Assembly (NCBI RefSeq): GCF_041260155.1
Contig: NC_091941.1
Span: forward strand, 37,892,747-37,956,746
Direction: 5' to 3'
Length of the DNA: 64,000 nt
Origin: Ptychodera flava
Lineage: Eukaryota > Hemichordata > Enteropneusta > Ptychoderidae
A program made the position numbers and the translations under genes. A model generated the notes under the pieces. That model did not search any database, was not told the DNA's origin, and saw only the letters and a program-made list of their open reading frames with translations. Below are positions 2,850-59,456 of the stretch, piece by piece (the first letter of the stretch is position 1; every line of letters begins with the position of its first letter).

Positions 2850-3360
2850 GGTTGATTCGGTGAAGTATTCCGGAGAAATATACCAGACCGATCTGTTTCG
2901 TTGATTTAGTAGTTGATATAGTGTACTTTATGAGCACAAAGTGGAGTGACTGCACAATTTGTAGCTTTCAGACTATATCCTCACATAATGATATCACGTG
3001 ATCATATCGGCTGCAATACCATAGTCGAATGTCAGGAGGTCTGAGAGGCAAAAGAACCATAAAATCAATTATTGTATTGCGTAACGTTTATGATGAAAGA
3101 AAATGTGTAGGACACGTTGTGTGAACTGCAGTCTATTTCCGATTGCCATCTCCTCATACCACTATACTGAAATTACCCTACGATGTCACACCCCCATAAA
3201 TGAATAAGATCGTCCCCGACTTACACAATCGCTTTTTGACCGTACCTGTGAAGGTAAATTCACAATACAGTACCTCCCTAAACAGTGCCCCTTGCCCCAA
3301 GTATCGGTAACCACTCCCAAATTCACTCGACGTAAAGTAGATGCTGGGGCGGGACAGCTG
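2850..3360 (-). promoter_or_regulatory. Upstream region of EPDR paralogue A, shared with paralogue B
   Basis: This sequence aligns with 23361-23860 upstream of paralogue B. A palindromic E-box CACGTG lies at 2995-3000, 146 bp upstream of the ATG, and is kept in paralogue B at 23494-23499, inside the longer match ATATCACGTGA. A TATATTTC stretch, in the gene's direction, lies about 35 bp upstream of the ATG in both. Promoter function is inferred from position and conservation only; the conservation may simply reflect a recent duplication. Confidence 0.4.
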
Positions 3361-3515
3361 TGGAGTTGACCATTTGGTGTTGACTATGATGTCGACTATT
3401 TGTGCAGTAAATGAGTCAAACTGAGAGTTTATTTATTATAATGACGTGTAGAGCAGCAGCAAAGTATATAACAAAGTCATGTAGCACTTTATTTCATTAA
3501 TAATAATAATTACTG

Positions 3516-3526
3516 TATATATATAT

Positions 3527-3607
<81 letters not shown>

Positions 3608-3618
3608 ATATATATATT
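3516..3618. repeat. (TA)n microsatellite
   Basis: About 100 bp of almost uninterrupted TA dinucleotides, with a short TGTGTG run near the right end. It lies between the EPDR-A upstream region and gene-free DNA. Confidence 0.95.
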
Positions 3619-3649
3619 GGTGTTATAATATCAGTTAATTTTTTATTTC

Positions 3650-6586: not shown

Positions 6587-6941
6587 TTAAAGCTCCATAA
6601 GCTGTATCTTTTGGCTATTTTTTCAAAACTTTTGTTTTGTGGTTTCCCTACACTTTCTGCATTGAATCCCTAAACTGTAATTTAATGCCAAGTATTTAGC
6701 ATTTCAACACAACCTATATGAATATAATCTACATTCTTATTGTTGAAACTTGTATTCAAGTCTGGACTAGAATTCATTTGTAAACAATAAACAACGATCA
6801 CTAAACACATACAAGCTGTGTTGACAAAGACAATATTCGAAATTTCAGTATGACAAACGGATTAGGGTCAGACATGGTAGCTGATATACAGAAGCAGAAT
6901 ACTGAAAAACTTGCCACAAGTTACAGCTTATGTCCCTTTAA
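6587..6941. mobile_element. TTAA-flanked MITE (piggyBac-like)
   Basis: The left end TTAAAGCTCCATAAGCTGTA pairs with the reverse complement of the right end, TTAAAGGGACATAAGCTGTA. The inverted repeat extends imperfectly over about 40 bp, and TTAA stands at both ends. A TTAA target is the hallmark of the piggyBac superfamily. At 355 bp with no transposase it is a non-autonomous element. It sits within the later copy of the local duplication, so it probably inserted after that event. Confidence 0.75.
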
Positions 6942-7829
6942 TTCAAACTCATCAGTACATAAACTATAAAGCTTAGCAAAAACAGAATTGACCAGAGCTC
7001 AGTACATAAACTGTTCAGGATTAAAGACACACCCGTGCATTCAAAATTCCAGAATAAACTATTAAGTATTAAATATATACACCTGTGACTTGAAATTTCT
7101 GTAATATAAAATATAAAGATTAAAATACACCTGTGACCTTTTAACTTGTATCAACATATAATGCTATCCGTCAAACTACATCTTTGTATGTTAGCTTCAG
7201 TTACTGAAAGCATTACGACCCAAACTGGTACCTCAACTCGTATTCCCCTAACTACGAGCGCAACACATAGCACATTTTAGTGTGTCGATAAAGTGATACG
7301 AGGAACAATAAAATCGATGTGGTCGACGATTTTTAATGTATCATATTACACTGCCAGGTGCAATTTTCAGTTATCAACTCCCTCTGTTAAAGTTAGCAGG
7401 AGATCAGACTTAGTCACAACAACAACAACAACACCGCCCGATCCACAAACACCAGCATTGGCGTATGACATCCTGCTAGACAAGTTTCAAATTTTGCAGA
7501 CGGGGTTGATTAAAATGTAATTCAAGGATTAAAAATCGTTGACCACATCGATTTTACTGTCTTCTTATCAGTTTTTCGATACTGTAAAATGCATTTGGTT
7601 GCATTTTAGTAGTAATAGGTGGAAAACGGGGGTGTTTCTCAGGTGAGTTTTATAGAGTAAAGTGTATTCTTATCTGATTTTGGACTATGTTGATCAGTAT
7701 TGTCAAAAGGATATTTTGTCGTGTTTGTTGACTGAAAAAATATTGTTCACTGTGCATGTTGATATGAAAGATGATAGATTCAAGGTCACAGTCAACGTCA
7801 TAATTTTAAGATGTGCATGCCTCAAAGTA

Positions 7830-8493
7830 CACTCAGTGAGACAGTTTTCGGACGACCTCAGTTTTCAGACATTTAATGACATGCTATTCGTTATACTCAC
7901 TTCGCTCCGTTTTGATAGCGTTTTACAAGTCATGCTACAGCATATTAAGTCAGGTGACGCTGCCGTCCCGTTTTGGATAGATTTTTTTTTTGGTAGAAGC
8001 TATTTCGGGCGCTACAAACTTGGTGAAGTTAGCCACACCGTACGATACGAGGCGTCGAACGCAACACACAGAGACAGCCAGTGTCCGATATCTAAGCGCT
8101 ATACACATAGAAATATAGTTGCGTCGTCCATGGATTAAACGTAACTAGTTATCACGAAATATTTCCATATAGTTTTCTAAACACATCGAAATGAAAACTG
8201 GGGGTTCGAAGTTTCAAAATATCTGATTTTTTAATCCAGTATTTAGCCCCTATAATCATATTCCAAATACGACGTCCGATTACTGCGATAGCAGTCTGAT
8301 TACACGCACTCAAATGGGTCAAAAATTTGGCAACTTTGACTCCCTAAATGCCACTTCTGTTGGTGTTAACAGTTTGAGGGTAAACACAAAAAAGTTTCGA
8401 AAAGTATGATAATAAGATTTCATAGTGCTCGTCATTTATGAAACGGCTTTGGGCGAAATTCACTACCCTGTCCGAAAACTGTCACACCGAGTG
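7830..8493. mobile_element. TA-flanked inverted-repeat element
   Basis: The left end CACTCAGTGAGACAGTTTTC matches the reverse complement of the right end, CACTCGGTGTGACAGTTTTC. TA is present immediately outside both ends, as expected for Tc1/mariner-type insertion. The interior (664 bp) encodes no recognisable transposase. An open frame of 158 codons that overlaps its left part (7662-8138) begins outside the element, has no recognisable domain and is judged fortuitous. Confidence 0.7.
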
Positions 8494-8910
8494 TATTCGT
8501 CTTTTGTGACAAATGGCGGTGAAGTAAATCGTTCTCCTTGGAAATAATGACATACACAGTACCATTTATGATAATGATTAGATAGGTCTTCCTTTAAAAA
8601 AGTTAGGTTATAGTCCAAGTTTCTTGACTAACGCAGATCCAAATCGTCTTTTCCTAACATACATGTTTCTATAATGAGCATTATTCGGAGTTTACAATTT
8701 CGTGACTACAGAACTCACAATTGTCACAACGACAATGTAGTATGTCGGCTTGGTAGGAAGACCGGTCACGCTATTCGAACATAGACTTGAGAGTCGTAAA
8801 AGAACTGCGACCTCCTGCATATGCACTTGACAAATACCAGGCAATAGAGAGGGAGGGTTTCCTGGTCGGAAGAGGAAAACTAACTTGAGTGGAAAGGGAA
8901 CTTTTTACAA

Positions 8911-10594
8911 CAAGCGACCTAGCGGCCGATATAGCTCCGCTGTGTTTATGTAAAGAATAACTATTTTTTACACATGTTGATGAAGAAGGTGGAAATCTTT
9001 GATAGCTCAATGCAGAGGCCAGAAAAAAGTGGCTAAAATAAGCTGCAAAAATACACAATTGAAGATTTCATCATACTTTGAATATATGACATCCGATCAT
9101 CCCTAAGAACATGTCAACCAAAGCTATCTGATGAGTAGGTTTTTGAGAATAAAATTTTCTGACCAAAAATGGCAACAATTGCCCCAAAAAATGAAATTGC
9201 AGATTTCATCATAATTTCAAGAGATCAAATTTAGTTCATAACTTCATCTATAGAAACCTGTATACCAAATTTCAAAGCTGTTAGACCAGTACTTTTTTTG
9301 AGAAACACATTTTTTGACCAAAAATGAGAAAAATTGCCCCAAAAATTCAAATTGCAGATTTCATCATTATTTTTTTTAATAAATATCATTTAGTTCATCT
9401 ATAGAAACCTGTATACCAAATTTCAAAGCTATCGGATGAGTAGTTTTGGAATTACACGTTTTAACCAAAAATGGCAAAAATTGCCCCCAAAATACAAAAT
9501 TACAGATTTCATCAGAAATTCATTATATATTACTGAACTCATCTGTAGAAACCTGTATACCAAATTTCAAAGCTATCAGACCAGTAATTTTTGAGAAACA
9601 CATTTTTTGACCAAAAATGGCAAAAATTGCCCCAAAATTACGAAATTGCAGATTTCATCATAATTCTAACAAATATCATTAAGGTGATCTGTAAATACCT
9701 GTATAACAAATTGCAAAGCTATCAGATAAGTAGTTTTGGAAATACACATTTTTTGACCAAAAGTGGCAAAAATTGCCCAAAAATACAAAATTGCAGATTT
9801 CATCACAATTTCAATAAATATCATGTAGTTTATCTGTAGGAACCTGTATACCAAATTTCAAAGCTATCAGATAAATAGTTTTGGAAATACACATTTTTTG
9901 ACCAAAAATGGCAAAAATTGCCCCAAAAATACAAAATTTCAGATTTCATTAGAAATTCAATATATATTACTCAGTTCATCTATAGAAACGTGTATACCAA
10001 ATTTCAAAACTATTAGACCAGTTCTTTTTGAGAAATACATTTTTTGACAAAAAATGGCAAAAATTGCCTTAAAAATGCAAATTTGCATATTTCTGCACAA
10101 TTTGAAGAAATCTGAAATAGATCATCCCTAGGGACATATGTACCAAATATCAAAGCTATCTGACTGGTAGTTTTGAAGAAGAAGATTTTTAAAAATTTTT
10201 TAACCAAAAATGACAAAAATTGCCATAAAAATACAAATATGGAAATTTCACTACGATTTGACCAAATCTGACTGAAGTGACCCTAAGTAAACTGCATGTC
10301 AAATTTCAAAGCAATCGAACAAGCGGTTTCAGAGAAGAAGATTTTTTTACCAAAAACACCAAAAATTGCCCCTAAAATACTAATATGCAAATTTCACCAC
10401 GATTTGAACAAACTTAAGTGTGGTCACCCTAAGTGAACTGCATATAAAATTTCAAAGCAATTGGACTTGCAGTTTCAGAGGAGAAGGCAATTGTTGACGG
10501 ACGACGACGACGACGACGACGGACGACGACGGACGACGACGGAAAATCAACCTATTTGATAAGCTCCGCGTCGCTGACAGCGGAGCTAAAAAGT
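8911..10594 (+). mobile_element. Helentron/'pearl'-like element with tandem core
   Basis: The interior carries about nine diverged units of roughly 130-155 bp, each with ACCAAAAATGGCAAAAATTG, a GCAGATTTCATCA-like stretch and ACCTGTATACCAAATTTCAA. After the units come a GAC-rich simple-sequence tract (about 10499-10541) and a terminal hairpin at 10562-10587 with an 8-bp stem (AGCTCCGC/GCGGAGCT) and a 10-nt loop. A related AGCTCCGCTGT lies inside the left end at about 8933, forming a subterminal inverted repeat. Copy B (26610-26635) has the empty site: sequence before 8911 continues directly into GTGAGAAGGCAAT. This layout recalls Helentron-associated elements and bivalve 'pearl' elements; the assignment is inference. 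Long open frames on the minus strand here are products of the repeat. Confidence 0.75.
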
Positions 10595-11407
10595 AGTGAG
10601 AAGGCAATGGCTAATAGGTATCACTGAATCATCCAAAGTTCAAGTTTTGCGAAGTATCATTACCGTAGGTTATTTTTTACACCAATACTGGTTAACATTT
10701 CTCAAACTCAGCTGGTTGGCTACCCTGATTGCATGATGTACGTAACGGTTGACCGAAATATATTACTTAGGGGTTTAAGAAATATGGGCATAAATCAGAT
10801 ATAACGGCTGTTGTTCTTCGAATCAACAAACCAAAGTATTAATATGAAAAAAACACGTTGTAAAATATCGGTGATGTCCGGAGTAACTGTTGCCACCGTT
10901 TCTTTACAGTTGACATCTTCCCTCAGGAAACTAGGTTGAAGTGGTTGAACTTTATTGATACGAAGCCGGATCAGACCAAAGTTTGCCAAGGCCAGGGGAC
11001 GCCTAGACTGACAAAAGTCTAAGCCTCCCCCACAAAGTCTTACATATCAAAACTTCACATTATATAGCCAATTTTTAAAGGCGTATCTGAACATGTGAAA
11101 TATATCACAGGAAGTAATCGTACATTTGCCACAAAGTATGAAAACTTCCACATACTTGATTGGAAGAAAGTTTCAACATTTAACGTAATTATTCTGCTGA
11201 CTCGGTATACCAACCGTCACTTTTTAGTATTTATGATATTCTTGTGATAAAGTACAGACTTCTAAAAATAGAAGTCACTAAAGTTACATGGTCAAGATTA
11301 GAGGAGCCAGAATTCGATTATATATGTATAAGCTATTTCATTCCAAAGTTAATTAAGCGTTGACTAAATTGACGTAACCATATCGTCGTCACAACTTATT
11401 GTTTCAG

Positions 11408-12076
11408 CTTAAGGTTCCAGAAAAGTAATTGACCTTTTAAGCTAACTAAAAACCCCCATATATTATATATTTTCAGAAATCCTCGATATAGAGGGACATT
11501 TTAGTTACCATATAGTGCCACAATATTGTTTACGTAACTATCACGTGATAGGTAATTTGCATAACCTTTCAAAATCGGTTTTCCCTATGTTTTGTTTCAA
11601 TGTTTTGAGATGTGTGGCTGAAATTTGTATGGGTGCAAGCTGTCCTAAGGATCTTCCAAAGTAAGTCTCAGAATGTATTTTAACCTCTTTAAACAACTTT
11701 TATGCCAGAAAAACTTCCAGCGCGGTGAATTTAACCCTCGTTGATTTCTATAAAATTGTGCTCCGAAAAAACTAAGCAAGATATAAAATATCTGAGACAT
11801 AAGTTGAAAGAGCGTTGTGATAGCTTGCATTCCAGCAAGTTTGAGTCAAATACTTTGAAGTATTGAGACAAACCATAGGAATAACAAATTTTTGAAAGGT
11901 TATGCAAATTACTTTTCACGTGATAATTATGTAAACTACGGTGACACTGTGGTTACCAAAATGTTTCCCTATATCTAGGCTTTCAGAAAATGTATTATTT
12001 ACGGGGGTTCAAAGCTTATTAACCACCAGAAAATTGTTACATTAAAAAGGTCAATTACTTGTCTTGGAAACTTAAG
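11408..12076. mobile_element. Large foldback element with arms of about 200 bp
   Basis: The stretch from CTTAAGGTTCCAGAAAAGTA at 11408 reappears as an inverted copy ending at 12076 (CTTAAGTTTCCAAGACAAGT on the other strand). The match continues through GTAATTGACC, an ATCACGTGA-like core and TTTGCATAACCTTTCAAAA, so each arm is about 200 bp or longer. The centre contains no recognisable gene. No target duplication was settled. Confidence 0.75.
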
Positions 12077-12540
12077 GCAGAGCTATCCAATTACATTTCA
12101 TTCGAGTAAAGGTATCATGGTCAATGTCAGTAAATATCTTTTGTCCTTACTGCATGAAAAGTAAAGTTGTTGGTTGTTTTCCAGTTTCTTTTCATTGACT
12201 GACCGGTAGCTGCAGTGTATGTTGATTAACACATTGGCAATTATACTTGAGTTAGTAAAAGAAAAACCGGTAATGATATTTGGGTTACTGTTACTAATAA
12301 TTAAGAAAGAGCTTCCACGTTTGGCCGACTATAATTGTTTGTATTTAAATTGTCATAGAATTAAAGTCCCAATAGTTGCGAAGGTGCAATAAACAGATCT
12401 CAATATATCCCGTTTTTCAAGAGTTTTCTTGAATAAGTCCCGTTAAAGACTTAAAAAGTGTATAACACTGTCATAAGTGTCGAAAGTGGCATGTAAAATC
12501 AAACGTCTTAACATCATTTTAGATTTCCTGCCATTTTCAT

Positions 12541-13550
12541 TTCTTGAAGATGAAAGTTTATATCAAGAAACCATTTGCGAGCCTTCTACCTGTTTATTGA
12601 TGGCGATAAAATAACAAAAGACGGAGTTTGTGGTCTGGATTGAAGGTACCCTTACCAAGGTCATGTGATCTGTTGATTTCTTCTTGTTCAGGTTCACACT
12701 AGTTCCAAACATGAACAAGAAGATCACATTTGTTAAACACTTTGAGCAAAGATTTCTACATTTATCAAATATAAAATGTTGATATCTGCAAAACTTTTAA
12801 TCGTGTCTTTTTGGTATTTGGTAGCATGAAGCCTGATATGGTATTTTCTTTTACATGTATTCTGTACCAGCACTTCTTGTACTTCTGGAGCCAAATTATA
12901 AAGTAATCAAAGTGACTGTGGACATCCCAGGTCTCACGTCATTTTTTTGACAGGAAAGTAAAATTTATTGACAAATAGTGAGTTTGATAGTAGATATGTC
13001 TACCATCAACATACAGCGTAATGTCTACAAACTGTAAAGAAGTAAAGCAAGTGGAGAATGTACAAAGAATGTTTTGAAAACAAAGTGACAAAAACATAAT
13101 GTCAATAGAGTGCAGTTTAACCGTCAAAATTAGTTCAAGGCGCATCCTATATCACCAAGTCTCACCAGACCCGAAATTTACTTTGATTTAAATTCAGTTG
13201 CATCAAGTTTTTAAACTCCTTTACTGCCCCACGCAAATTTGAAGGGGATGTCTTCAGTGTCTTATCTGTTACGTGGGTGTATCAGTTTTTGAACGAATCT
13301 GTATTCTGTATTCGTTCACTGTATCATCCGACACTGTGGAACAGTCATCATCTCTCAACCATTTTGACAGGAAAGTAAAATTTATTCACAGTGACTTTTA
13401 TAGTACATATGCCTACACTAACATGACGCATCATATCTACATAACTGTAAATAAGTAGAACAAACGAAAAGTGTACAAAGAATGTTTTGAATAACAAAGT
13501 AACTTAATTTTAACCGTCAAAATGAATGCATCACGCGGCTTTCTCAGTGA
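12541..13550. repeat. Low-copy repeated segments shared with copy B
   Basis: 12541-13150 aligns with 27380-28060. A shorter piece starting with TTTTTTGACAGGAAAGTAAA at 12944 recurs at 13363 and, in copy B, at 27855 and 28265, so a local tandem duplication preceded the large one. Each piece contains GTACAAAGAATGTTTTGAA and AACCGTCAAAAT. No exon is convincing. A short minus-strand stretch before CCTTG/GTAAGG (near 12660) is conserved in both copies, but no protein family is recognised. Confidence 0.5.
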
Positions 13551-13615
13551 ACGGGAGCGCCCTCAATCGATGAATTTGTCTTCGTCGTAGCTTGCTATAC
13601 GCGCCGTAGGCGTAT

Positions 13616-14424
13616 GTACGGCGCCTATCTGACAAAATGTGCTTATCTGACAAAACTCTTTTTAGCAATAACCTGGGGAGTTACTTTAGCCAGCCCACTT
13701 GTACTTCATGCGCGCGGTACATGTCGCTTCGCGCTTCGTACGATGTTGTGTACACGTAGTGTGCCAATTTAACGTTAATACGAAGTCTTCTATACGAATG
13801 ATTTTGTTTCTGTAAACTACTCTCAAATTGTTGACATGTAATTAATTCATTTGTATTGTGGCTGTTCTTCCATCGGCCGGGCTCGGGCTCGCGCTCGCTC
13901 GCTGTAGTGTAGTCGAGACCATGGAGATAACTCCGTATTGCAACATGTACAGTGTAGGTGCTTTTCTTCTCATCCACTTGCATGTTTATCGAGTATAATT
14001 TATGTTCTTAAATGGCACAATGAGCGATCGAGGAAGGTGATGAAAAACAAAAACACAAGTACTCTGCTTGCCATTGTGGTGATTTTGATACTCCTGCCAC
14101 CGTGAGAGCGGACGACCTCATGTGACCTCGTGCCCTCTCCTCTACCCCTTAAGACAGCCTCTATGTGTTGATCGATGTATACACAGTGATTAATTGAGGT
14201 GCTCGGCGATTTTACGCAATCAATGAAATTTACTGTATTTTTTAATTATTATATGGCTATTTTGTGATGTTTGTGATTTTAGACTGCTCTAATTAAGATT
14301 TCGTTTGTGTGTTTTAACAGACGAAGTATTGTGTGAGGGATTACTTTCCACAAATGAGTAAGGCTAAAAGCAGTAATTAGTTATTTTTGTCAGATAAGCA
14401 CGTTTTGTCAGAAAAGCGCCGTAC
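13616..14424. mobile_element. Inverted-repeat element, empty site in copy B
   Basis: Ends beginning GTACGGCGCCTATCTGACAA (left) and GTACGGCGCTTTTCTGACAA (right, other strand) form inverted repeats that extend about 40-60 bp and include GTGCTTATCTGACAAAA. Copy B at about 28985-29010 lacks the element and has the uninterrupted site. The interior of about 700 bp, with CG-rich clusters such as GCTCGCGCTCGCTCGC, encodes no recognisable transposase. Confidence 0.75.
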
Positions 14425-14957
14425 AGGCGAACGCCTTGCATGATGGCGTCCTTTCCGCGAAGTCTTCCCGTAAGCTTATACTGTCCACACCCGATCTGGA
14501 GGGAATTACTTTTGTAGAGAGTCATCGACTAATTGAATGCTACAGTTATACTCCTTAAAACAGTTTAAACATTGTTGGGGTAATATTTTTTAATGCTGAT
14601 TTTGCATTTTTGTGAAATGTACAAATTTCAAATTGATAAAAACCAGATGAAGAGTACCCGGTATTCTCTTGCGATAGCATGACAATAACGGGTAAGTATA
14701 GACGTCGCCGTAATCTACATCTGATTTTAATCAGAGTGGATGACACTTACAGGATAAAGAATTTACCGTGAAAAATTTATCAAGTCCATTATGAAGGGAA
14801 ATAATTTAAACAGAGTAAAACGCAAACAAAATACAAAACACAGCAGATAAAACAAAATTACTGCAACAGAAAGGAAGAGAAACATAAATGGATAAAATGG
14901 CAATGAAAAAATAAAGCAGGCCTCGATGTACTGTGGACGAAATCGACAATTCTCGCA

Positions 14958-15122
14958 CTGTTTACAATTTCTCTCTACTTTTGAAATTTTTCTCTGCTGT
15001 TTAAAATTTCTCTCTACTGTTTGAAATTTCTCTCTACTGTTTAAAATCTCTACTGTTTGAAATTTCTTTACTGTTTGAAATTTCGCTCTACTGTTAAAAA
15101 ATTCTCAACTCTTTAAAAATTC
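14958..15122. repeat. 21-bp minisatellite
   Basis: About eight diverged copies of a unit close to CTCTCTACTGTTTGAAATTT. Unit length varies, with some shortened copies. It directly precedes a degraded retroelement fragment. Confidence 0.8.
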
Positions 15123-20300: not shown

Positions 20301-23300
20301 TTACAAATAATATTCATTTTTTTCCACATTTCTTAGATTTTTTTACATTTTGTCTGTACCCATTTGAGGATTTGAAATTTATGACATTTGAAATTTATGA
20401 CTGATGCCGTATGTTGTGAGTTCGAACCCGATTGAAAGCTAGCTGTATTCCCTATAAACACTGCGGTTACAATGTGATACTAAGTCAAATCAGCATGAAT
20501 GTCATTTGCACTGCAGCACAAATATCTGAGGGTCTGATGCAGCACATTAATGACACTGGACGTTGATGTGATATAAAGGAACAGGTGATATTGAGTATTA
20601 AATTATACAAGTATATTGGTGGTGAAAATAGTGATCTGACTGGTCAAGGCATGAAAATAATGGTGACACTATTTGTGGACTACAACTGGAACAGGCTCCA
20701 GTGCTCAGTCAGAGAAAAATCCCTCTTTTGACATTCCTTGCCAGAATTTCGATGAACTGTTAAAAATAGCAATATAACCTTAATACTGGGTATTCTAGTC
20801 AGTTGTGACCAGTTCACTCCATATATATGTGTACTCACTATCACTTGTGAATCTTTAGTGTTGTTAACTGGTCAAAATCTCAGCTCACTGGGGTATTGGA
20901 TTGTTTTTCTCACAGTCCTTCCATACTTGCTGTGTTTCCACTGCCATGCCACTCTCAAATTTGTAAAATTACTAATTTTTTAGATGATTTACTAATTTTT
21001 TACATTGTTGATTCATAAATATGCGAGTGCAAGGAAGCAGCTAGTTGATTCAGAGCTGAAGGCCCCCAAACCTCAAAATAGTTCTGTCTAAGCACATGTG
21101 GTACTTAATTTGAATTTGATTGAATGATATTCCGTATTGGAACGGTAAAGTTTACTTATAAATTTCAAAATTTACAAAAAGTTTCAATACCCAATTCGTA
21201 AATTTGCTAAAAAATTTCAGAAGCCAGAGGAAACACAGACTTGCAAAACATTGTAGTTTAATATGGTTGTTAATTGTAGAAAACATTACTGTCATCATAA
21301 TTTTCTTTTGAGTTATATCATTTCTAGTCCATATACATTCATGTAAAATGTGAAGTAAATCATGTTCACACGGATGAAAGTTTTCTCTGTAATTACTCTA
21401 CCTCTGACAGCATTATGTAATCATCATTTTGCGATGCATTGGTAAAAATAACCGCTTACGAGCAAACTCTGGTCTATTTTCATGTATTTGTCACTAATGG
21501 GGATAAGCAAAACCAATTCCCTTCAAACTGTGCCCTGCCAATGCAATATTCTGGTTTTAGAATATGCAAATTCCCATTTGTCAAATGATATGCACACATT
21601 GGGCATACGAATAGTGAATGAGCTATAGTAGCAATCTTCAAATGAAAATACATTTCACTCGTGCAATAATACAGAATGTGAATGGGCAGAGAACACATAC
21701 AGTTTGACAACAAATCAATCCCACACTGGTGTTCTCACACTCCTGGCTTACCACGGATGTGAGAATTGTACCATACCAACCAGGCTAAGTTGTGTGGACT
21801 TGGCCGTGAAAAGCTAACAATTATCCCAGTCTAGAATCTCCTGGTTTCATTGTCAACCAAATTAAATTCTCATACAACTGGAATGATATCCATTACATTA
21901 TTCTCCTAAACAGTGCCACTGCCCCCCAAGGCTTTGATTGGATAAAATTGCAACTGTGATGTTGCAAAATAGAACAAGCTCCACTGTTTTGGTTGTTTTT
22001 CAACTGAAGACTGGAGATCCGGCGTTTTTGGCTTACCTCTCTATGAAGAAATAAAGATGAAAAGTAATCTTTCTTGTCTACCAGATTAACTTCATCCACC
22101 ACATGGATTCTTTCATTGTATGCATCATAGGCCATTCTGCCCCTCATTTCAAATTGTTTGCTGATGTCATACTGCAGTCATCAATCAAAAATAGAAGAAT
22201 TCAGTATTAAAACATGTGTTGTACATCTGACAGTGAATATGTTTGGAACTCGCAGACATCCACATAACAATACAGAAAAATCCTTGTCTATGGTTTTAAG
22301 ATACAAGTATCTGATTTTCCTGATCGGCCACTTCATCTCTGGGTTGGCCTTAGCGAATTTTGACATGTAACTTTTTTGCTCATTTCCAAACTTCAGTTAA
22401 GCATAATTTCAAACACCCAAAATTCAATGCCTTCTTTGTATATTATTTGCAAAAGAAGCAAAGTTGCACATTTTTACTCATATTTTTTTTAGGTTTTTTG
22501 ACCACCAACTCCAAAGATTGGAATGGTTTATCCAGTCGAAGTTCTGAGCTGTCATGTTGCATTCTAGTCCCTGGAGCATGAAAGGGGTGTGTTTGTGTGT
22601 ACTTCTCTACACATAGACAAACATTGCAGCACTTCAACAAATAATGGGTAACTTAGTGCTGGTCACTGCATATGAGACAGATACTCCCTTGAAAAAATAA
22701 AAAAAACTTCTGCATTCAACGAGTTAGTGGACGAACTGATGAAAATGGTAAACCACATTACAAGAACGAGGCTGCCATGCAACCACGCCCCACGCCACGG
22801 TCCCTCCACAAAAGGAGGGACTGTGATGCAACCTATGGCAATAGTTTGCAAAATGTACAAGGTTGGGCTGAAGGCCCGAGCAATTGTTAGTGCAAACATT
22901 TTGTTGACAGTTTGCCAACTCACTAACCTGTATAACTTTTCCTTCCCATACAGCCGGTGCAACTGTAATGAATACGAGGAAATGTACTGTTTACGTTCGA
23001 TTCCTCCATGATTCATCTATAACTCAAGTGAAAATAGATAAACGGAAAACAGCAACTAGCGGAAGGTTGAACATGATTATATTTCTTTCCGCTTTTATGA
23101 ATAACCAGATTGTACGATTAATCAACCATGTCGCACGTGTGAAACAATATGACGATTTATGTAAGTGCATTGTAGGTTACCCTCTGGTATAATTCACCAA
23201 GCAGCTGAGTGCGCATGGGTGGATATGTTACCTCCATGGTACGGAGTGACTAGGACTGAAGCAAACACTGAAACAAAAGGTCATTGAACTTACGGCATGG

Positions 23301-23360
23301 TTTTGGTGTCTGTCCGTACACAACACCAACGAACACTAATATTACAAGTAAGATTCGCAT
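17304..23360 (-). CDS. Ependymin-related secreted glycoprotein, paralogue B (complete)
   Basis: Six coding exons join in consistent phase: 23360-23294, 22962-22928, 22171-22037, 20093-19913, 19061-18974 and 17370-17304, giving 190 residues. All introns are GT..AG. The ATG has A at -3. Residues 1-16 are a signal peptide; QTPKPC, then LAPAVWEGKVIQ, match the N-terminal EPDR signature. Further family hallmarks are GRMAYDAYNERIHVVDE (about 45-61), KTKEC (88-92), RIPNNATF (105-112), GVTVQLWGG (128-136), KGCIPV (149-154) and FFDVTAGIHDPDVFIPPKEC (170-189). Four cysteines (22, 92, 151, 189) match the conserved family set, and N109 and N161 are N-glycosylation sequons. EPDR proteins are secreted and have a LolA-like hydrophobic-ligand fold; a specific function here is unknown. 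The gene is one of two tandem paralogues. No break is seen. Confidence 0.93.
22784..22825. mobile_element. 42-bp foldback insertion with 7-bp target duplication
   Basis: Copy A at about 1120-1135 reads straight through CATGCAACCTA. Copy B has ATGCAAC, then 42 extra bases, then ATGCAAC again (22826-22832). The insert holds the inverted pair GTCCCTCC / GGAGGGAC six bases apart and ends in CTGTG. The same terminal sequence (CAGTCCCTCC) is found at 27685-27714 and 58499-58585. It lies in intron 2 of EPDR-B, between exons 2 and 3. Confidence 0.75.
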
Positions 23361-23870
23361 GGTTGATTCGGTCAAGTCTTCCGGAGAAATATACCAAACC
23401 GTTCTGTTCCGTTGATGTAGTGTACTTTGTGTGCTCGATGGGGAGTGACTGCGCAATTTGCTGCCTTCGGACGAGATCCTCACATGATAATATCACGTGA
23501 CCGTACAGCTACATTGCCATAGTCAGACAGTCTGATGTCAGGAGGTCAGAGGCAAAAAAGATCCGTAAGTTTCAATTCCCTTACTATTGCGTATAACGTT
23601 TATGATGAAAGTTAATATGCAGGACACGTTGTGTGAACGGCAGTCCATTCCTGATTGCCATTTCCTCATACCAATACTGAAATTACCCGATGGTGTAACA
23701 CCCCCATTAATGAATAAGATCGTCCCCAGGCTTACACAATCACTTTTTGACCTTGCCTGTGAAAGGTAAATACGACACGGTACCTCCCCAAACAGTGCCA
23801 CTTGCGGCAAGTATCGGGATACACCCCCAAATTCACTCGACGTGAAGTAGACGCTAGTTGGACAAAAACA
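23361..23870 (-). promoter_or_regulatory. Upstream region of EPDR paralogue B
   Basis: The region aligns with 2850-3360. The E-box CACGTG at 23494-23499 lies 134 bp upstream of the ATG and is preserved in both paralogues, as is the GGTATATTTCTCCGGAA-like stretch close to the start codon. Function is inferred from position. Confidence 0.4.
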
Positions 23871-24480
23871 AACTCACAAGATTTCGATTATGGTAGATTT
23901 TCTGCCACTTCATATTACAAACTGATGAAAGTAAACTTCACATTTTACAGGGTGTAAAATGTGACATCGGGTTCATATCAAAGGAAGGTAAGCTTATACT
24001 ATAGATGGGACAAGCTTATACTAGTTACGCTCGCGGTATGTAAAATCTTCCATAGACTCATATTCGACCAAGCTTACGTAAAATGATTTTTTTCACAGCA
24101 TTTTATTGCAATGATGATGAATGCAAGAATGGGTGAACAAGTAGAAACACGTCAATAATGATAAAACAACATATCAAGTCATTATGTATTATTTTGCTTT
24201 TAAAAAGGCATTTTCAATTCTTTTTTGTCGAAAAACAGCCTCAAAAAACAATAGCAACACAATTTTTAACAATCAACAATACACTACGTAAAATGCCTTC
24301 TATCCAACGAATCCCAACAAAAACACACAAAAGGGTTGAACTTAAATTTGCAAGTTTCTCGATAACAAATACTGAATAAATCTGCATGAATAATCGTTTG
24401 TGTGTAGCGTATGCTGAATGACAATTATCTGAAGAATTTTTCCACCACAAAAAATGATTTAAGCATGATTTAAACAAATC

Positions 24481-24720
24481 TTAAGGGACTTATGTAGCAA
24501 ATTTCAAAGAAATTGGACAAGCCCTTTCAGAGAATACAGTTTTTTTGACCATGAATGGCATAAATTGCCCTAAAAAGACAAATATTGAAATTTCACCACA
24601 TCTATACACATCCAATCAATTTGGACATGCTGCTACAGAGAAATAGATGTTTTGATCAAAACAGGGCAACAATTGCTCTAAAAACAAAAATATGCAAATT
24701 TCACTATATTTTGCAAACAG
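24481..24720 (+). mobile_element. Fragment of the tandem-core repeat family
   Basis: Two degraded units resemble the core of the element at 8911-10594: GGGACTTATGTAGCAAATTT, a TTTTTGACCATGAATGGCATA stretch and ATTGAAATTTCACCACA. Neither end of the element is present, so this is a solo core fragment. Confidence 0.65.
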
Positions 24721-24906
24721 CTTCTCAGCTTGTCAAAATCAATTGTAAATCATGAGATATGCATGATGTTTGATAGGGTGAATGTAGGCATTTCACCACA
24801 CAGTAGAAAGGGAAGCCAGGAAACCAAAATAGTCAATTTTCAAAACTATAGGAAGCTACTGAGGAGCAAGAAGACCATGTTTCAGAGGAAGATGTGTAAT
24901 CTGAAA

Positions 24907-25115
24907 AAAATGCTCCCCAAGTGCCACCAAATAACACCATTTTAATCTCTGTTTTTCAAAGGCTCCAACGGCAGGAGGGGGGACACCCCCTCCTGACCTC
25001 CCCCCACAAAAATACTCCCCAAGTACCACCAAATAACACCATTTTAATCTCTATTTTTCAAAAACTCCAACAACAGGAGGGGGGCAACCCTCTCCTGCCA
25101 TCCCCCCGTGACCTC
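24907..25115. repeat. Two-copy tandem repeat, about 105 bp
   Basis: A unit starting CTCCCCAAGTGCCACCAAAT and ending in a GGAGGGGG-rich stretch occurs at about 24911-25014 and again at 25015-25115 with modest divergence. It contains AACACCATTTTAATCTCT in both copies. No coding content is recognised. Confidence 0.75.
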
Positions 25116-25588
25116 TTGCGCGGTCGCTTGTGGTGCTTTGCACCACATCTTTGCCCTCTTTATCCTCAGACAGCGACGAACTAAAAAAAAATTATAAATC
25201 TGAAAATTTACTCTGAAAAAAAAAATTTGCACAGCTAATCTCAATTGCAAAAATTTTTTTTAGAAATTTACAATAGTAAAAAAGAATTTTTCACAACTTC
25301 ATTGTGACCACCCCCTCCCAAGATCTAATGGTCCATCCCTAATAGAAATAAGGAACCTTCAGTAATTACAGGGGGGTGGGCCGAGGGAATAGGGGGGATC
25401 ACTGTTTAGAAAACTATCCAAGGGGGAGAGTCACTTGTTATAAACCTATCTTGGGGGAGGGCCACTTTTAACAGAGGATGATTTTACGGCCAAACCTTTG
25501 TATGTCCATTTGATATTTTCTAATAGGAAACTGCCAACAAATACATTGATTCTTTTAAATACATACACATTATCGACAAGCAAAGAAG
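25116..25588. other. Gene-free stretch rich in A and G runs
   Basis: Homopolymer-rich DNA with runs of A at 25182-25270 and G-rich stretches at 25370-25460. No gene or clear element end was found. Confidence 0.4.
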
Positions 25589-26250
25589 ATGCAATGGTAT
25601 CAGTTAAAACTAATGAAAGACGAGAGACATAGACATATGGGACAGATGGCAAAGTGTATATCAATTATATCCAATCTTAATTATGTCTTTCACATCAATA
25701 ACATTGTTTCTAGAGCCTTAAAATCTCTTGGTTTTATTAAGCGTTTTTGCCAGCCATTCAATGACATTTCAGCAATTATTTCTCTGTATTTTGTTAATGT
25801 AAGATCTATTCTAGAGTATGGCTTTGTTGTGTGGTCACCCCACCAGCAGGGCCTGTCAAACAAAATTGAACAAAGCGCAAATCAGGTCACATTTGTCGCA
25901 AACTCAATTTTCACTGCAACAATTTATTGTAGAATACTGAACATCCATAAATTATACAGTAGAGGACTTACCCTTGATATGTGTTTTTTATACAAAATAA
26001 TCCATTCACATCCAATATTTTGAATCAAATCTGTTTTTATGCCCCAGCAGAAATTTACGCAAGAAACCCCTTTTTAAACCAGCCTTGTGCTCTGTTGTAG
26101 AAAATTCTCGACAATGCCAAGATGCACGTCCGATTTTTACGATATCTCTTTCAAATGTTGATCTGTGTATCAAATAATGAAGTAAAATTATTATCAAATG
26201 TCTATAAATGCACAGATATTGTTAGTTTTATGTTTTATATTGGCAAAAAA
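25589..26250 (+). pseudogene. LINE (Jockey-type) reverse transcriptase 3' fragment
   Basis: The plus-strand translation contains NIVSRALKSLGFIKRFCQPF, SILEYGFVVWSPHQQGL, IEQSANQVTFVAN and LYSRGLTLDMCFLYKIIHS. These are the region after the catalytic core in non-LTR retrotransposon polyproteins, where SRALK.LGFI.R and S.LEYGSVVWSP are standard. The open frame spans 25589-26023, and similarity appears to run on to about 26190 in another frame. It is a 5'-truncated, inactive copy, as is usual for LINEs. Confidence 0.8.
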
Positions 26251-27684
26251 TTGATCACAGTTCTCTCATAGATAGACTACCATGTATAGTGAATCAACAT
26301 TTCGGTGAAATTCCAAAGTCCAAAGTCTTGCACATACATTCATTTTTAACCACCCAAGTCTAATAATACAGTAATATGAATATCAAGACTGCATAAATAC
26401 ACAGTTTTGTATTGATTAATATATGTAGGCCTACCTGGCTATATTCGAAACGTTACGCGTCCCTTCGATCATGATATGTGAACTTAGATTTGCGAGTCGT
26501 AAAATAAGTGCGACCACCTATCTGCATCTACACTTGACAAATACGAGGCAATAGGGAAGGAGTTTCCTGGTCGGAAGAGGAGAACTAGCTTGAGTGGAAG
26601 GGGAAATTTTTACAAAACGTTGTGAGAAGGCAATTACTAATAGCTATCACGCTATCCTCCAAATTCAGGGTTTGTTTTCACCAGGTATCATTACTATAGG
26701 TTATTTGTCACACCAACTCTTGTTAAAATTTCTCAAACTCGACTGGTTGGCTACCCTTGATGCGTGATTTAGGTAACCGAATATACAGCATACCGAAATA
26801 TTTCAGGTTGGCATAAATCAGATATGACGGCTGTTGTTCTTCGAATCAACAAACCAAGGTATTAACACGAGAAATACATGTTGTAAAAATATTCGGTGAT
26901 ATCTGGAGTAATATCGTCGAGGCGTTCAACCAGCTATGAACGCCATATACGTACAGCAAAGATTTGAACATTACCGAACTCCCTAGTCAGTTCTAGGGAG
27001 AAGCTATCTGAGTCATTGAAGAGACTCAAAATTGAATGTACATTCAGTTTGACCTCATATCACCTTTATACTGCTTTAAGATATTTATTTCTGGTTCAAA
27101 CGGGAGGAGATTGGGGAGTTTTGGCTTTTGCTGTATTCCAGAGTTAATCTTCCTGAAAGCGCTTTCAGAAAGTCAACTTGCATATCTCTGTCTTTGAACT
27201 CATGTCAATTTCATCCCCCGTACGCACATGCAGGGAAAGTTTTTGCTTCAAAGTAAAGCCTGTGTTATGATATGTTATGATATTCTTCACCATGTACGAT
27301 AAACATTACATGATAATTGTTAAGATAATTAACTCAGAGTAATTTAAATAAATGATTTAAGATAAAACGAATTAAACGTTTCTTGAAGATGAAAGTTTAT
27401 ACCTAGCAACCACATTTGCAAGCCTTCGACCAATTCATCAAAAGTGATCAAAGCGAAAACCACGGAGTTTGTGGCCTGGATGGAAGGCACCCTTACCAAG
27501 GTCATGTAATCTGTTGATTTCTTACATGTATTGTTCAGGTTCACACTAGTTGCAAACATGAACAAGAAGATCACATTTCTTAAACACTCTTAACAAAGAT
27601 TGTTTAATGTTTTCTACATTTATCAAGTATGAAATTGTGTCACATACATAATTATAACTTTTAATGTAGTTTTGCTTATTTGGG

Positions 27685-27714
27685 ACAGTCCCTCCACAGG
27701 AAGGAGTGACTGTG
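27685..27714. mobile_element. 30-bp foldback insertion
   Basis: Copy A near 12815-12830 reads TATTTGGTAGCATGA. Copy B reads TTTGGG, then 30 extra bases, then TTTGGG again (27715-27720). The insert begins ACAGTCCCTCCACAGG and ends AAGGAGTGACTGTG, so it is nearly all inverted repeat. It shares its end sequence with the 42-bp insert at 22784 and the 87-bp element at 58499. Confidence 0.65.
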
Positions 27715-28435
27715 TTTGGGAGCATGAAACCTGATATGGATTTCTTTTAGATATATACATATATTCTCGACCAGCATTTCTTGTACTTCTGGAGCTACCG
27801 TATACTGTAAAGTAATTAATGTGACAGTGGACATTCCTGGCCTAACGCCACTTTTTTGACAGGAAAGTAAAATTTGTTCACAAATAGTAACTTTGATAGT
27901 AGATATGTCTACCATCAACATATAGGCGGCGTAATGTCTACATAGCGTAAATAAGTAAAAGCAAATGAAAAATGTACAAAGAATGTTTTGAAAACAAAGT
28001 GACAATAACATAATGTATAGTGCAATTTAACCGTCAAAATTAGTTCAAGGCACATACTATACCACCAAGTCTCGCCATACCCGAAAATTTACAATATGCA
28101 TCAAGCTTTTAAACTCCTTAAAGTCCTTGCTAATTATTACGCAGCTTTGCTTGTGATGTCTTATCTGATACGTAGGTGCGTTAGCTTTCGAACTTAAGAT
28201 AATCAATTGTAACTTATTCGTTCACTGTATAATCTGACTCTGTGGAACAGCCTCACCAGGCATTTTTTTGACAGGAGAGTAAAATTTATTCACCAACATA
28301 ACGTCTGCCATTATGCTGCGTCATATCTACATAACTGTAAATAAATGAAGCAAACGAAAGGTGTACAAAGAATGTTTTGAATAACAAAGTGACAGTAACT
28401 AAATGTCAATAGTGTAGTTTAGCCGTCAAACCATA

Positions 28436-28882
28436 GGGAATTGCACAGAAGTCCGTACCCAAGGGTAGGGGTGGGGGTAGGGGTGTCTTGGTCTCAGAAC
28501 AAGGTTCCTCTTGCTAATGGTTTAATTTATTTTAATACGTTTAACTATGATATATATTGCCAATAAAGATTTATACCACCAACCTTTCTTTGCAGCTGTG
28601 GTATCTTTGTCTCATGTTAGCACTGGTTTTGTAACGATTTCTTTTTTCTAGTTTGTCCTTTGACAATCTTAAGCGAAGTTTTGTCACTGTGTTGCGTCTA
28701 TCTTGCTAGTTTTTGATTGCCTAATTCGCCAAAGCAAGCAAGGGTAGTAATTTAGTCTATTATCTGAATAGTTTGAGTGCCTAATTTGCCAAAGTAAGCA
28801 AGGTAAATTACTAATCTCTGGACGCTGTCACCCGATTACCACTGGATACCTTGCTTGCTTGACGGACTTCTGTGCAATTCCC
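28436..28882. mobile_element. 447-bp MITE with perfect terminal inverted repeats
   Basis: The first 21 bases, beginning GGGAATTGCACAGAAGTCCG, are exactly the reverse complement of the last 21 (28862-28882). Copy A at about 13517-13530 lacks the element. The interior holds two diverged direct repeats around TTGCCTAATTCGCCAAAGCA and a G-rich tract and has no coding capacity. Perfect ends suggest a fairly recent insertion. The superfamily is uncertain because no clear target duplication was found. Confidence 0.85.
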
Positions 28883-31297
28883 GATGTAATGGTCAAACTG
28901 AGATCATCACGCCTCTTCTCAGTGAACGTGAAGGAGGGCGCCCTCAATCGACGAATCTGTCTTCGTCGTAGCCGGCGTCGCAGCTAGCAATCAACGCCGT
29001 ACGCCTTTCATGATGGCGTCCTTTCCACGACGACTTCCCCTATACTGTCTACATGCGATCTGGAGGGAATGACTTTTGTAGCTGTTTTTTCTCCAGAGCC
29101 TATCTTTTCCTTCACACCAACGCTAAATGGAAGAGGGAGAGTAATCGGACTTTATGAATGTCATAGGGGCATTATTTTTTTTATAAATGCTGAATTTGCA
29201 TTCTGTAAAATATACAGGGTTCAATCAAAGCATCATTAAGCTAACACTCACGAGATGAAGAATTTACCGTGAAAAATTTTTCAAGTCCATCATCATGGGA
29301 AATAATTCCAACTATGTAAAAACGCAAACAAAATACAAGACACAGATGACACAAAATTACTGCGACAGAAAGGAAGAGAAACGGATAACACATGGCAATG
29401 ACATGATGATGTGTGCCCCGTCAAAATGACATTCAAAATTGATACCTCAGTAAGTTAAAGTGGATCAAGTCTTGTCAGGCTTGAAAATTTAGCCAAGAAA
29501 TCATCAACTTTGCTCTTCATCTTATAAGGCTTCATCTTATAAGGCTGCGTTCACAAAAAACGGTGAGGGGGTTGGAGGAATTTGGGGGATTCGAAAATCT
29601 TTTTGAGGGGTAGTAGAGGGGGACTTGAAAGTTTTGCGCTGCCTCTAGGGGACCTGAAAATTGTTTGGTTCCCTTTTAGCTTTACCTTTTCAAAATCCAA
29701 GGGTTTGCAGGTATTTCAGTGAAAATGAATAACATTTTAATGTCATCCATTTGTTCTAATGTTAGTAATAATTAAAATCTAGAACCATTTTGTCACATTT
29801 CATGACTTTTATCTCGAAAAAATCTAAAGATGTATGGTTTTTCGTTAAAAAAACCAAACAAGTGGGCCTAGTAACGGGGCGAAAGCTGCAAATGTTGATA
29901 TTTTTTCAACATTTCTATGCAATATATCAAATACATTTTCTTGCTGTCTCCCTACAGTATGCTGAAACACACAATATTCAGTTTGTCGACAAACCCTGAA
30001 TGTCAATATGTATTGGGTGATAATTTAATTAGAGTCCAGACTGACAGTCCATTTGTCAACGATCATGATACAGATGCAGAGTATACATACACAGGCTGTG
30101 TTGGTAAGTTGAATACTGGACAGTTCAACATGCAGTATGGTGAAGAACAAGAACGCAGTTGTGTAAAATGAACAAAATAATCAGTGTCACGATCACTGCA
30201 TACCGGCAGTAACAGAGGTAGCAGAGGTAGCCCTGACTCTGATGTAGTTGAAGAAGAGTTTAAGTCAAATGACGCTCATGACCGTGAAACACGTGATATG
30301 GAAGACCAGAAAACTTGAACGTTATCAGGGTTTTTGAATTCTGCCATATAAGAATAATAATAAAGAAAAAAGATGGGATCACCATGCTTGATTTTCGAAA
30401 TTTTCACATTCTCACCGTAAAAAATCACAGAAGTTAAACTTTGAACAATAAAGACACTAATTTAAATGAAAAAATGTGTGACTGAATGGAATTATTTTCT
30501 ACGAAATTTACCATTATTACATCCAAAATGTTAGAGATTAAAACGTTTTATTTTAATCTTCCAGTATTGTCAATTTCGAGCATCATCTAAGTCATATATG
30601 CTCGTTCTTTTGAAAAAAAAATGTTTTGTTATGTCACTGTGCTAAATTTTTCATAATTTGGCAAAATGTAGCCAGGAATTCACTATTCTCATACCCTCTA
30701 ATGATCGTCACCTTGTGTGCTCCTCAGCTGGTGCCATTGACCTGACCAGAGTTAGATTAACTAGGTCAGGAGAGTATGGTGGGTGTGGAACTTAGTCGGC
30801 TTAGACTGATAAATCCTAAAAAAATACACTGGCGCGTTTAAAATGAACTGGTAATAACAGGTAGTGTCGAATATCTGCGGGTAGATATGCCCAATACGAG
30901 GGTTGGATGAAAAGTTTTGAGCCAAACTATGAAGGAGCGATGCCAGATCAATGAAGCTTGGTTTGCATTTATTTCAACTCTTCTGACTTGGTTATTTTCA
31001 GTTCGCTGTGTATTTGACTGCTGATACAAGACTTATGGGAGGCTATTAAAAAGACGAGGAAAGTTGAGAAAAAAGTTGCCTCAATCAGGAAAATGCTCCA
31101 CCCCACCAGTCAGTCATTGCCATGGCAACAGTGTGTGACTGCGGCTTCAAACTCGGTCAAAACCCACCATACTCTCCTGACCTAGCACCCTCAGACTTTC
31201 ATCTCTTCCCCAACAAGTATAAACAGCTGGAAAGCATTTTGACGATGATGATGACGTCATATCCGCCTTTCAGGACTTTTTTAGGGAACGAGCACAA

Positions 31298-31738: not shown

Positions 31739-32847
31739 TAGGGCCAAAGTCCCTGAAGCTACTAAAGACATGGATACAAATTAAGTATTTCCTGACTGTA
31801 TGAAATTATCTCACCAAGGTCATCCTAGGGACCTGTAAACCAAATATTAAAGCTGTCTGACCAGCAGTTTTGAAAAAACAAGCGACCCAACAGTCGACAG
31901 AGCTCTGCTGTGTTATGTAGAGAATAACTTTTTGTGACACATGTATTGATGAAGAAGGTGGATGGATATCTTTGATAGCTCGTTTCAGGATGGCCTGACC
32001 AAAAATGGCAAAATTAGCTGCAAAAATACAACATTGAAGATTTTATCATAATTTCAATATATTACATTAAGATAAAGCCTAGGAGCCTGTATGCCAAATA
32101 TCAAAGCTATCAGATCAGTAACTTTTGAGAAACAAATATTTTGACCAAAAATAGCAAAAATTGACCCAAAAATACAAAAATTGAAGATTTCATCAAATTT
32201 CAATATATCACACTAAGACAACCCCTAGGAATCTGTATAGCAAATATCAAAGGCATCAGACAAGTAATTTTTGAGAAACACATTTTTTTGACCAAAAATG
32301 GCAAAAATTGCACCAAAAATACAAAATTGCAGATTTTATCATATATTCAATATATCATATTTAGTTCATCTGTAGGAACCTCTATACCAAATATCAAAGC
32401 TGTCAGACGAGCGGTTTTGATGAAATAAAGTTTTGACCAAAAATGACAAAAAAATTCCTTAAAAATACAGATTTGCATATTTCATCACAATTTGAACAAA
32501 TCTAAGTTGGGTTATCCCTAGGGACTTGTATACAAAATAATAAAGCTGTCTGACCGGTGGTTATGATGAAGTGCCTTTTTTGGCACTAATTTGCATATTT
32601 TCAATAATATCAAAAAATTAAGGAAGACAATTTCTCAAAACCATATTTTTCATCTACACAACCAATATCAAATCAGTAAGTACTGCTGTTCTCAAGATAT
32701 TTGAGTGGACGGACGCCTCACAAACGGACATACATACATACATACATACATACATACATACATACATACATACATACAGACTGACGCCAGACGCTGGACG
32801 GATACCCATCCCAATAGCTTCAATAGACTATAGTCTATAGTAGCTAA
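31739..32847 (+). mobile_element. Tandem-core (Helentron/'pearl'-like) element with (CATA)n
   Basis: It begins TAGGGCCAAAGTCCCTGAAG and ends with the palindromic TATAGACTATAGTCTATAG stretch and TAGCTAA. A subterminal pair AGCTACTA/TAGTAGCT is inverted. The core has about five diverged units with ACCAAAAATGGCAAAAATTG and ATTTCATCA. A (CATA)n tract at 32728-32778 precedes the right end. It shares both ends with 57211-58377 and its core with 8911-10594. Confidence 0.75.
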
Positions 32848-33830
32848 CAAATAAATATATAAATAATAAACAAACAAAATAACATATGTTCAAGCTTTAC
32901 TACTTGTAACACCCACAGCTACTTTTCAGTATTGTGTTGAGTTGATGTTCAGTTATTATGCTGTGTGTTATGTGTTTAGTTTGAATACCCTGAAAACAAA
33001 AGACATTTGGAGGACATTTTTGACAGATTTCTGCACAACCCTAAAGATAAGTGTTTTTTTGAGCAAAATTCCATGTAACTTTCCCCCTTCAGTTTAATAT
33101 AGTTTTAAATTAACCCTTTACTCAAAAGTCATCCGAACAAATGGTCACACAGGGGTCATGTACATATTACCAATGGTATATAGAATGAATGCATTGTCTT
33201 TTTAATTTCCAAAGTATGATACAGCAAAGAGTAAGAATTTTAGGACAATTTTTTCACTGAGAAGACTGAACTGAACTGCATAATTATTTTGAGTCTGTTT
33301 GCTGGTATGCATGTTTAGCATTTCATATACCGGTATGTCTATGCTTTACTTCAACTGAGTATCTGTATGATGTTTTCAGATGTTGGGGAAAAATGTATAA
33401 CATGACCATTGTGATTTCAATGCACTTTCCACAACCCAGTGTCTGCCTTTCTATGACTACCCAAGATATTCAATGTTACTCCACTGTAATGACAGTCTGC
33501 CATTGGAATAGTCCTTCATGGGCTAACTATAAAAGACCCATTAATGCCATTTTTTTCTCCTTTTTTTTCAGTATTTTTTTTCTTGTGTGTCCACTACGTA
33601 TTCTAGTTCTTCCTATAGCATGATGAAATAACCAGTTTCAACCTAGCCTCTGTATCATTACCAACCATTATTATTGTTGACAAATGAAGTCAATTTTCAA
33701 TAATAATATTGCTCATTTTACACATAACAACTGCATTGTGAGGTTTAAGACTTGGTATTTCATCATGCTACAAGAAGTTTAACAAGGAACACCAGCTTCA
33801 ACAAGGAACAAAAATGCTGAAAAATATTCT
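32848..33830. other. Interior of the Harbinger-like element without recognisable gene
   Basis: About 1 kb of AT-rich sequence. The longest open frame (33393-33623) has no domain that I recognise. Confidence 0.4.

Positions 33831-53836: not shown

Positions 53837-59456
<5,620 letters not shown>

Follow-up and report, generated by a model that had tools for sequence, protein, structure and literature searches.

Two short palindromic inserts as candidate excision footprints of a P-type transposon

The stretch of DNA analyzed here (the window, 64 kb at 36% G+C) carries two short, largely palindromic inserts of 42 bp and about 30 bp, each lying between 7-bp target duplications and sharing its ends with an 87-bp element elsewhere in the window (Table 1). 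Judged from their anatomy alone, and read against what is known of Drosophila P, we put somewhat better than an even chance on both inserts being excision footprints of a P-type transposon.

In the proposed mechanism, a longer transposon of P-superfamily type with the ends 5'-CACAGTCCCTCCAC...GTGGAGGGACTGTG-3' would have inserted and duplicated 7 bp of its target. Its transposase would then have excised it by cutting the 3' ends at the junction and the 5' strands approximately 15–17 nt inside the terminal repeat, a geometry that we take over from Drosophila P, after which the donor overhangs would have been filled in and ligated, a few filler bases being added at the join. The predicted product keeps both target duplications around about 12–15 bp of each end placed head to head, which amounts to a palindrome of about 30 bp. 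Later slippage would have altered the left edges, through two nested tandem duplications in element 1 and the loss of one CA in element 2, and the 87-bp element would be a small non-autonomous or internally deleted relative.

Table 1. Positions in the window of the two inserts, the 87-bp element and their flanking duplications
Feature	Position	Strand	Remark
Left target duplication ATGCAAC, 7 bp	22777–22783	.	paralogue A: single copy at 1122 within 1060–1200
Element 1: CACGCCCCACGC, 12 bp outside the palindrome	22784–22795	.	
Element 1: 30-bp near-palindrome, proposed excision footprint	22796–22825	.	
Right target duplication ATGCAAC, 7 bp	22826–22832	.	
Left target duplication TTTGGGA, 7 bp	27679–27685	.	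paralogue A: TTTGGTA at 12810 and 12817
Element 2: 29-bp near-palindrome CAGTCCCTCCACAGGAAGGAGTGACTGTG, proposed excision footprint	27686–27714	.	
Right target duplication TTTGGGA, 7 bp	27715–27721	.	
Left target duplication CTTGAGT, 7 bp	58492–58498	.	
87-bp element, putative non-autonomous or internally deleted relative	58499–58585	.	
Right target duplication CTTGAGT, 7 bp	58586–58592	.	

Results

Structure of the inserts and of the 87-bp element

The original prediction placed 42 bp at 22784–22825 between two copies of ATGCAAC, and the sequence confirms this. For the second insert it gave 30 bp at 27685–27714 between two copies of TTTGGG; these are present, but the insert is better read as 29 bp (27686–27714) between two copies of TTTGGGA, the 6-bp/30-bp version describing this same site and differing only in where one base is assigned. 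The 87-bp element, said to lie between two copies of CTTGAGT and to carry the same ends as the tiny inserts, does so, and its terminal inverted repeat (CACAGTCCCTCCACACA) is perfect, with 17 of 17 positions matching. Ends common to the elements had been given as CAGTCCCTCC; the ends are indeed shared, but that sequence is only roughly right. The left arm of element 1 is CACGGTCCCTCC, with one mismatch and with 12 bp of non-palindromic DNA before it, and the right arm of element 2 is GGAGTGACTG, likewise with one mismatch.

The three targets (ATGCAAC, TTTGGGA and CTTGAGT) are unrelated, and each is duplicated over 7 bp. Site 1 also allows an 8-bp reading, ATGCAACC, since the insert and the flanking DNA each begin with C; neither of the other two sites does. 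Once two edge changes are granted, the sequences of all three elements are consistent with a 7-bp duplication around the ends CACAGTCCCTCC...GGAGGGACTGTG, beginning with CA and finishing with TG. For element 1, tandem duplication of CCACG (5 bp) and then of CCACGCC (7 bp), starting from a 30-bp insert, reproduces the 56 bases of 22777–22832 exactly, and we infer that nested duplications of this kind did take place at its left edge. For element 2, inspection shows that the observed TTTGGGACAG is what remains when one CA is taken out of a CACAG directly after TTTGGGA, so the likely change there is the loss of one CA. With these changes undone the inserts are 30 and 31 bp long, and by inspection each divides into 15 bp of left end, 3–4 bp, and 12 bp of right end. 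The near-palindrome of element 1 thus reads, under this split, as CACGGTCCCTCCACA, AAA and GGAGGGACTGTG, and the centres of the two inserts are AAA and GGAA. Bar one mismatch per insert, the retained ends (15 and 12 bp) fall inside the 17-bp terminal repeat of the 87-bp element.

These endpoints bear on an alternative in which a longer MITE, for example the 87-bp element, inserted at each site and lost its interior in place through replication slippage, hairpin-mediated deletion or interrupted gap repair after excision. The 87-bp element shows that a longer relative exists, and the literature offers precedents: incomplete repair synthesis followed by joining accounts for most of the products recovered from wild-type flies, in the account of repair products in PMC2895639, and for P-MITEs a passage of PMC1562414 proposes internal deletion combined with ectopic repair. 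Two independent deletions would nevertheless have to end at nearly the same points, 15 and 12 bp into the ends, whereas cleavage inside the terminal repeat predicts the same endpoints without coincidence, and we consider loss of the interior in place improbable.

Arm-to-arm mismatches number 1/12 in element 1 and 1/10 in element 2, too few bases for the ages of the elements to be had from them. Both tiny inserts have ACA before and AA after a centre of 1–2 bp, and their 6- and 7-bp centres are too short for the comparison of interiors by which a MITE family would be recognized. The 87-bp interior had no convincing second copy in the window (best other match 18 bp, E 0.01). DNA folding gave z values of −4.5 for element 1, −1.3 for element 2 and −6.2 for the 87-bp element; by energy element 2 is an unremarkable hairpin, 22 of 200 shuffles folding at least equally well.

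Occurrence relative to chance

With up to three mismatches allowed in each 12-bp end, the window holds eight end pairs within 600 bp, compared with 0–3 in 20 simulated windows. When no more than three mismatches are allowed in total, four pairs remain, compared with none in any of the 20 simulated windows, and chance palindromes were ruled out on this count. Three of the four low-mismatch pairs have a duplication, and these three are element 1, element 2 and the 87-bp element. Of 20,000 random sites, 157 had an exact 7-bp direct repeat when ±2 slop was allowed; the left edge of element 1 lies 12 bp beyond that slop.

A structure scan of the window that required an exact 7-bp duplication, CA ends and an 11/13 terminal-repeat match over 20–4,000 bp, skipping k-mers of fewer than 3 letters or at more than 200 places, returned the 87-bp element only; both tiny inserts escape it because of their altered left edges. 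At k = 7 a blind scan for short elements with 11-bp repeats picked up the 87-bp element and an A-rich hit at 25205; at k = 5 it picked up 61236–61280 and the 87-bp element again, shifted by one base; at k = 6, 8 and 9 it had no hits in the window. Over 30 simulations of the blind scan the average at k = 7 was 0.03, low-complexity repeats having been removed from the simulations and not from the window list. The interval 61236–61280 consists of 35 bp flanked by two copies of TCAAA, with inverted ends of 11 bp that differ at one position, and may be chance.

For longer elements, the window has 281 end pairs 20–30,000 bp apart, two of them with at least 6/7 matching flanks where 0.38 were expected. 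One of these two is the 87-bp element; the other, at 23776–52909, has five mismatches in its ends and is probably chance. Separately, a perfect short palindrome, TCACATTTTACAGGGTGTAAAATGTGA, lies at 23937–23965 beyond the aligned end of an A/B block (the paralogues A and B are described below), and no target duplication is visible at its flanks.

Paralogous sites

The window holds two diverged copies of one region, copy A at about 66–14,900 and copy B at about 22,200–29,400, which align in blocks; over nine chosen blocks, 2,666 of 3,073 gap-free columns are identical (87%). Both tiny inserts lie in copy B, and the paralogous blocks (1–15000 and 22200–29400) serve for them as a natural empty-site control; the 87-bp element has no such empty counterpart. 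Exact empty sites had been claimed in copy A for both inserts. At site 1 this holds, since the target is single-copy in copy A, which shows that an insertion occurred there, but at site 2 copy A is ambiguous and carries the 7-mer twice in tandem.

The alignments reflect this difference. At site 1, deleting the insert plus one duplication from copy B outscores deleting the insert alone at 4/4 gap settings, by 1 to 5.5 points, while at site 2 deleting the insert alone, which leaves a sequence 7 bases longer, scores slightly better at 4/4 gap settings, by 1 to 4 points. With the insert and one duplication removed, copy B matches copy A at 88 of 107 aligned bases with 28 gap columns at site 1 and at 86 of 107 with 43 gap columns at site 2 (end gaps included in both). 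In copy A, site 2 reads TTTGGTATTTGGTA (12810–12823), with TTTGGTA twice in tandem. The site may be empty, its tandem repeat having arisen by chance, or it may hold both target duplications without any DNA separating them. The sixth base of the 7-mer is T in both A copies and G in both B copies. Had the insertion come before A and B diverged, one and the same change would have had to happen twice, so the pattern tends to favour a more recent insertion in copy B together with a separate tandem repeat in copy A. Should copy A instead hold both duplications without the insert, the excision model would cover it with no extra assumptions.

A survey of the A/B gaps in the nine chosen blocks found eight of at least 12 bp, three of which are occupied by the two insertions, split or shifted by the aligner. 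Two of the other five have an adjacent repeat of at least 8/11 (10/12 at 2900 and 8/11 at 23005), so small tandem duplications do occur in this region.

Excision footprints or minimal mobile units

Taken together, the three elements with their 7-bp duplications support the transposon origin, the shared ends and the target duplications that the original prediction had put forward. The same prediction took the inserts for minimal mobilized units, and here we prefer a different reading. If double-ended palindromes of about 30 bp were mobilized in trans as units, they would be true minimal mobile units; the same ends, the same 7-bp duplication, the clean single-copy target at site 1 and the similar centre context of both inserts (ACA..AA) all speak for it. 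However, one transpososome should not easily pair ends 30 bp apart, a 30-bp duplex being physically awkward, and the transposase of Drosophila P also binds at internal sites that lie further in than the terminal repeat, as the account in PMC7776569 describes. Only two copies were seen in 64 kb, and their centres differ. A known process also yields the same kind of product: P-element excision can leave head-to-head palindromes of about 30 bp flanked by target duplications that are still whole, in the junctions tabulated in PMC2895639. We therefore regard mobilization as units as unlikely. A transposase working in that way would have to bring two ends together with hardly any DNA between them, possibly by way of a hairpin or an extruded cruciform, and we hold this version of events to be just as doubtful.

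Once the edge changes are allowed for, both inserts keep their duplications, no more than 17 nt of each end, placed head to head, and little filler. Points against the excision-footprint reading include the lack of a parent element or transposase hit in the window, the ambiguous site 2 of copy A and the unremarkable folding energy of element 2. In addition, there are only two tiny inserts (n = 2); the shared ACA/AA context around the centres would also come from a common tiny ancestor; and the extra 12 bp of element 1 sit at its outer edge, whereas the filler of fly footprints sits between the ends.

Assignment to the P superfamily

Members of the P superfamily duplicate 7 or 8 bp of target and have terminal repeats starting with 5'-CA; here the duplication is 7 bp at three sites, and the repeat of the 87-bp element starts with CA and matches at 17/17 positions. 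The use of a CA start as a mark of the superfamily is generalized from P and Pdre2 only. It is reasonably supported that the element works like a P-type element, and membership of the P superfamily is plausible from the duplication length and end dinucleotides. Elements of the hAT superfamily usually duplicate 8 bp, unlike the 7 bp seen at all three sites here.

A transposon of another superfamily with 7-bp duplications, for example a 7-bp hAT or an element of Kyakuja/Zisupton type, could in principle have left the tiny forms as its footprints or MITEs. Fungal hAT7 and Kyakuja elements (KDZ group) do duplicate 7 bp, and Kyakuja termini are CA...TG (family descriptions in PMC12730594). Those descriptions are fungal, however, and give the Kyakuja families there as having no terminal repeats, whereas a 17-bp terminal repeat is present here. 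In addition, hAT cleavage forms hairpins on the flanking DNA, according to the review's section on that superfamily (PMC3878927), and such hairpins should not leave about 15 bp of each end. We judge an origin in another superfamily to be very unlikely.

Window content and searches elsewhere

We take the window to be animal nuclear DNA; it has six ORFs of at least 150 aa (bacterial code). Among 27 stop-to-stop ORFs of at least 110 aa, no Pfam hit to a transposase was found, and no parent element was seen in the window. The minus-strand ORF at 59052–59654 matches Pfam DUF4706 (1.4e-17), and two other ORFs have hits under the cut-off, to PCNP and DUF3605. A 154-aa ORF at 25559–26023, which by eye we take to resemble the end of a non-LTR reverse transcriptase, gave no Pfam hit at 0.05. 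No tRNA was found in the window and no Rfam match reached the gathering threshold. A repeat of about 146 bp forms two arrays and one single unit, among 9025–10490, 31996–32585 and 57941–58098; the last two places have flanking sequence in common (32428–32850 and 57938–58381, 88%), and all may belong to a single mobile repeat family that contains an internal satellite. At 50557–50843 there is a minisatellite whose units are mostly 29 bp apart and which is open in two frames of the minus strand.

The end pair, sought 2–32 bp apart and also 30–60 bp apart, had no matches in the viral contigs searched. A 14-mer matched 43 stretches in viral contigs, which were examined for further ends (up to two mismatches) and base composition only; one viral contig (L041:11956–12050) contains, within roughly 100 bp, several motifs resembling the ends, some in each orientation. 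The sole bacterial or archaeal match to the end pair, in a Kaiserbacteria contig (L001), was rejected as a coincidence, being a hairpin with a different interior. By eye this contig has strong palindromes with C- or G-rich arms at about 154–194, 1427–1475 and 2931–2967, one L001 palindrome carrying by coincidence the same 12-bp ends as the window elements. In open-licence full text, the 12-base end matched, judging by titles, primer-type papers and one paper on mouse retroviral elements; none of the matches listed for the 10-base end concerned transposons by title, and the sequence was absent from the matches listed for end variants combined with transposon words. A family with these ends was thus not found in the open-licence literature, among the matches listed.

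Discussion

Implications

If the excision-footprint reading is true, the scars record the position of end cleavage by an uncharacterized P-type transposase together with the break joining of its host. A genome scan for such palindromes would then give the cleavage stagger of a transposase from outside the flies with no need for biochemistry, and structure-based MITE finders could be listing P-type footprints as ultra-short MITEs. Were palindromes of about 30 bp instead mobilized as units, they would rank among the smallest mobile DNA units in eukaryotes, and if such units move themselves, a cut-and-paste transposase would make do with a much smaller minimum substrate than expected.

Comparison with known systems

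According to one review (PMC3878927), a DNA transposon departs either without a footprint or with just a few bases left behind. P differs in this, and its footprints are a known kind. The P transposase cleaves one strand 17 bp inside the terminal repeat, a position called unusual and atypically long in the passage on cleavage in PMC7776569, and in the fly excision assay the donor ends carry 17-nt overhangs (assay description in PMC2895639). Among P{wa} junctions from Rad51-deficient (spn-A) flies, 63 of 66 isolates have both duplications whole (PMC2895639, Table 1). The inserts in these 63 measure 4–7 bp in 20 cases, 16–20 bp in 5 and 25–44 bp in 38; 27 are of 26–36 bp, 14 are of exactly 30 bp, which reflects microhomology in the fly P end, and 15 are of exactly 7 bp (same table). 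Since 20 of the 63 are only 4–7 bp long, inserts of about 30 bp are a main class and not the sole one. The window inserts resemble the Drosophila footprints in that both duplications are kept, with the two terminal repeats meeting head to head over at most 17 nt each, a small filler and a length in the 25–44 bp class; they differ in that the fly element has an 8-bp duplication and unrelated end sequence. The fly junctions are moreover experimental and from Rad51-deficient animals, whereas the window inserts would be old natural scars with edge slippage.

In the length of the duplication the window elements are like 1360 and Galileo, both of the P superfamily. For 1360 the duplication is 7 bp in 274 of 279 insertions (PMC3276498, in its insertion counts), and for Galileo it is mostly 7 bp, three D. 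willistoni copies having 8 (PMC2775673 and PMC4168063, in the copies they describe). Galileo is unlike the present elements in its very long terminal repeats, and its preferred target, given there as GTAGTAC or GTATTAC, is absent from the three targets here. The zebrafish P-like transposon Pdre2 (THAP9) is an animal P-type element with CA...TG ends and a short terminal repeat starting with CA (13 bp, CATACCTGTCAAC), as its description in PMC10983969 has it; it differs in its 8-bp duplication, its sequence and its nature as a full-length coding element. The P-MITEs of Anopheles gambiae, as catalogued in PMC1562414, are short non-autonomous elements with P-type ends and in this are comparable to the 87-bp element, whereas their names give sizes of at least 205 bp, their duplications are 8 bp long and their interiors are shared.
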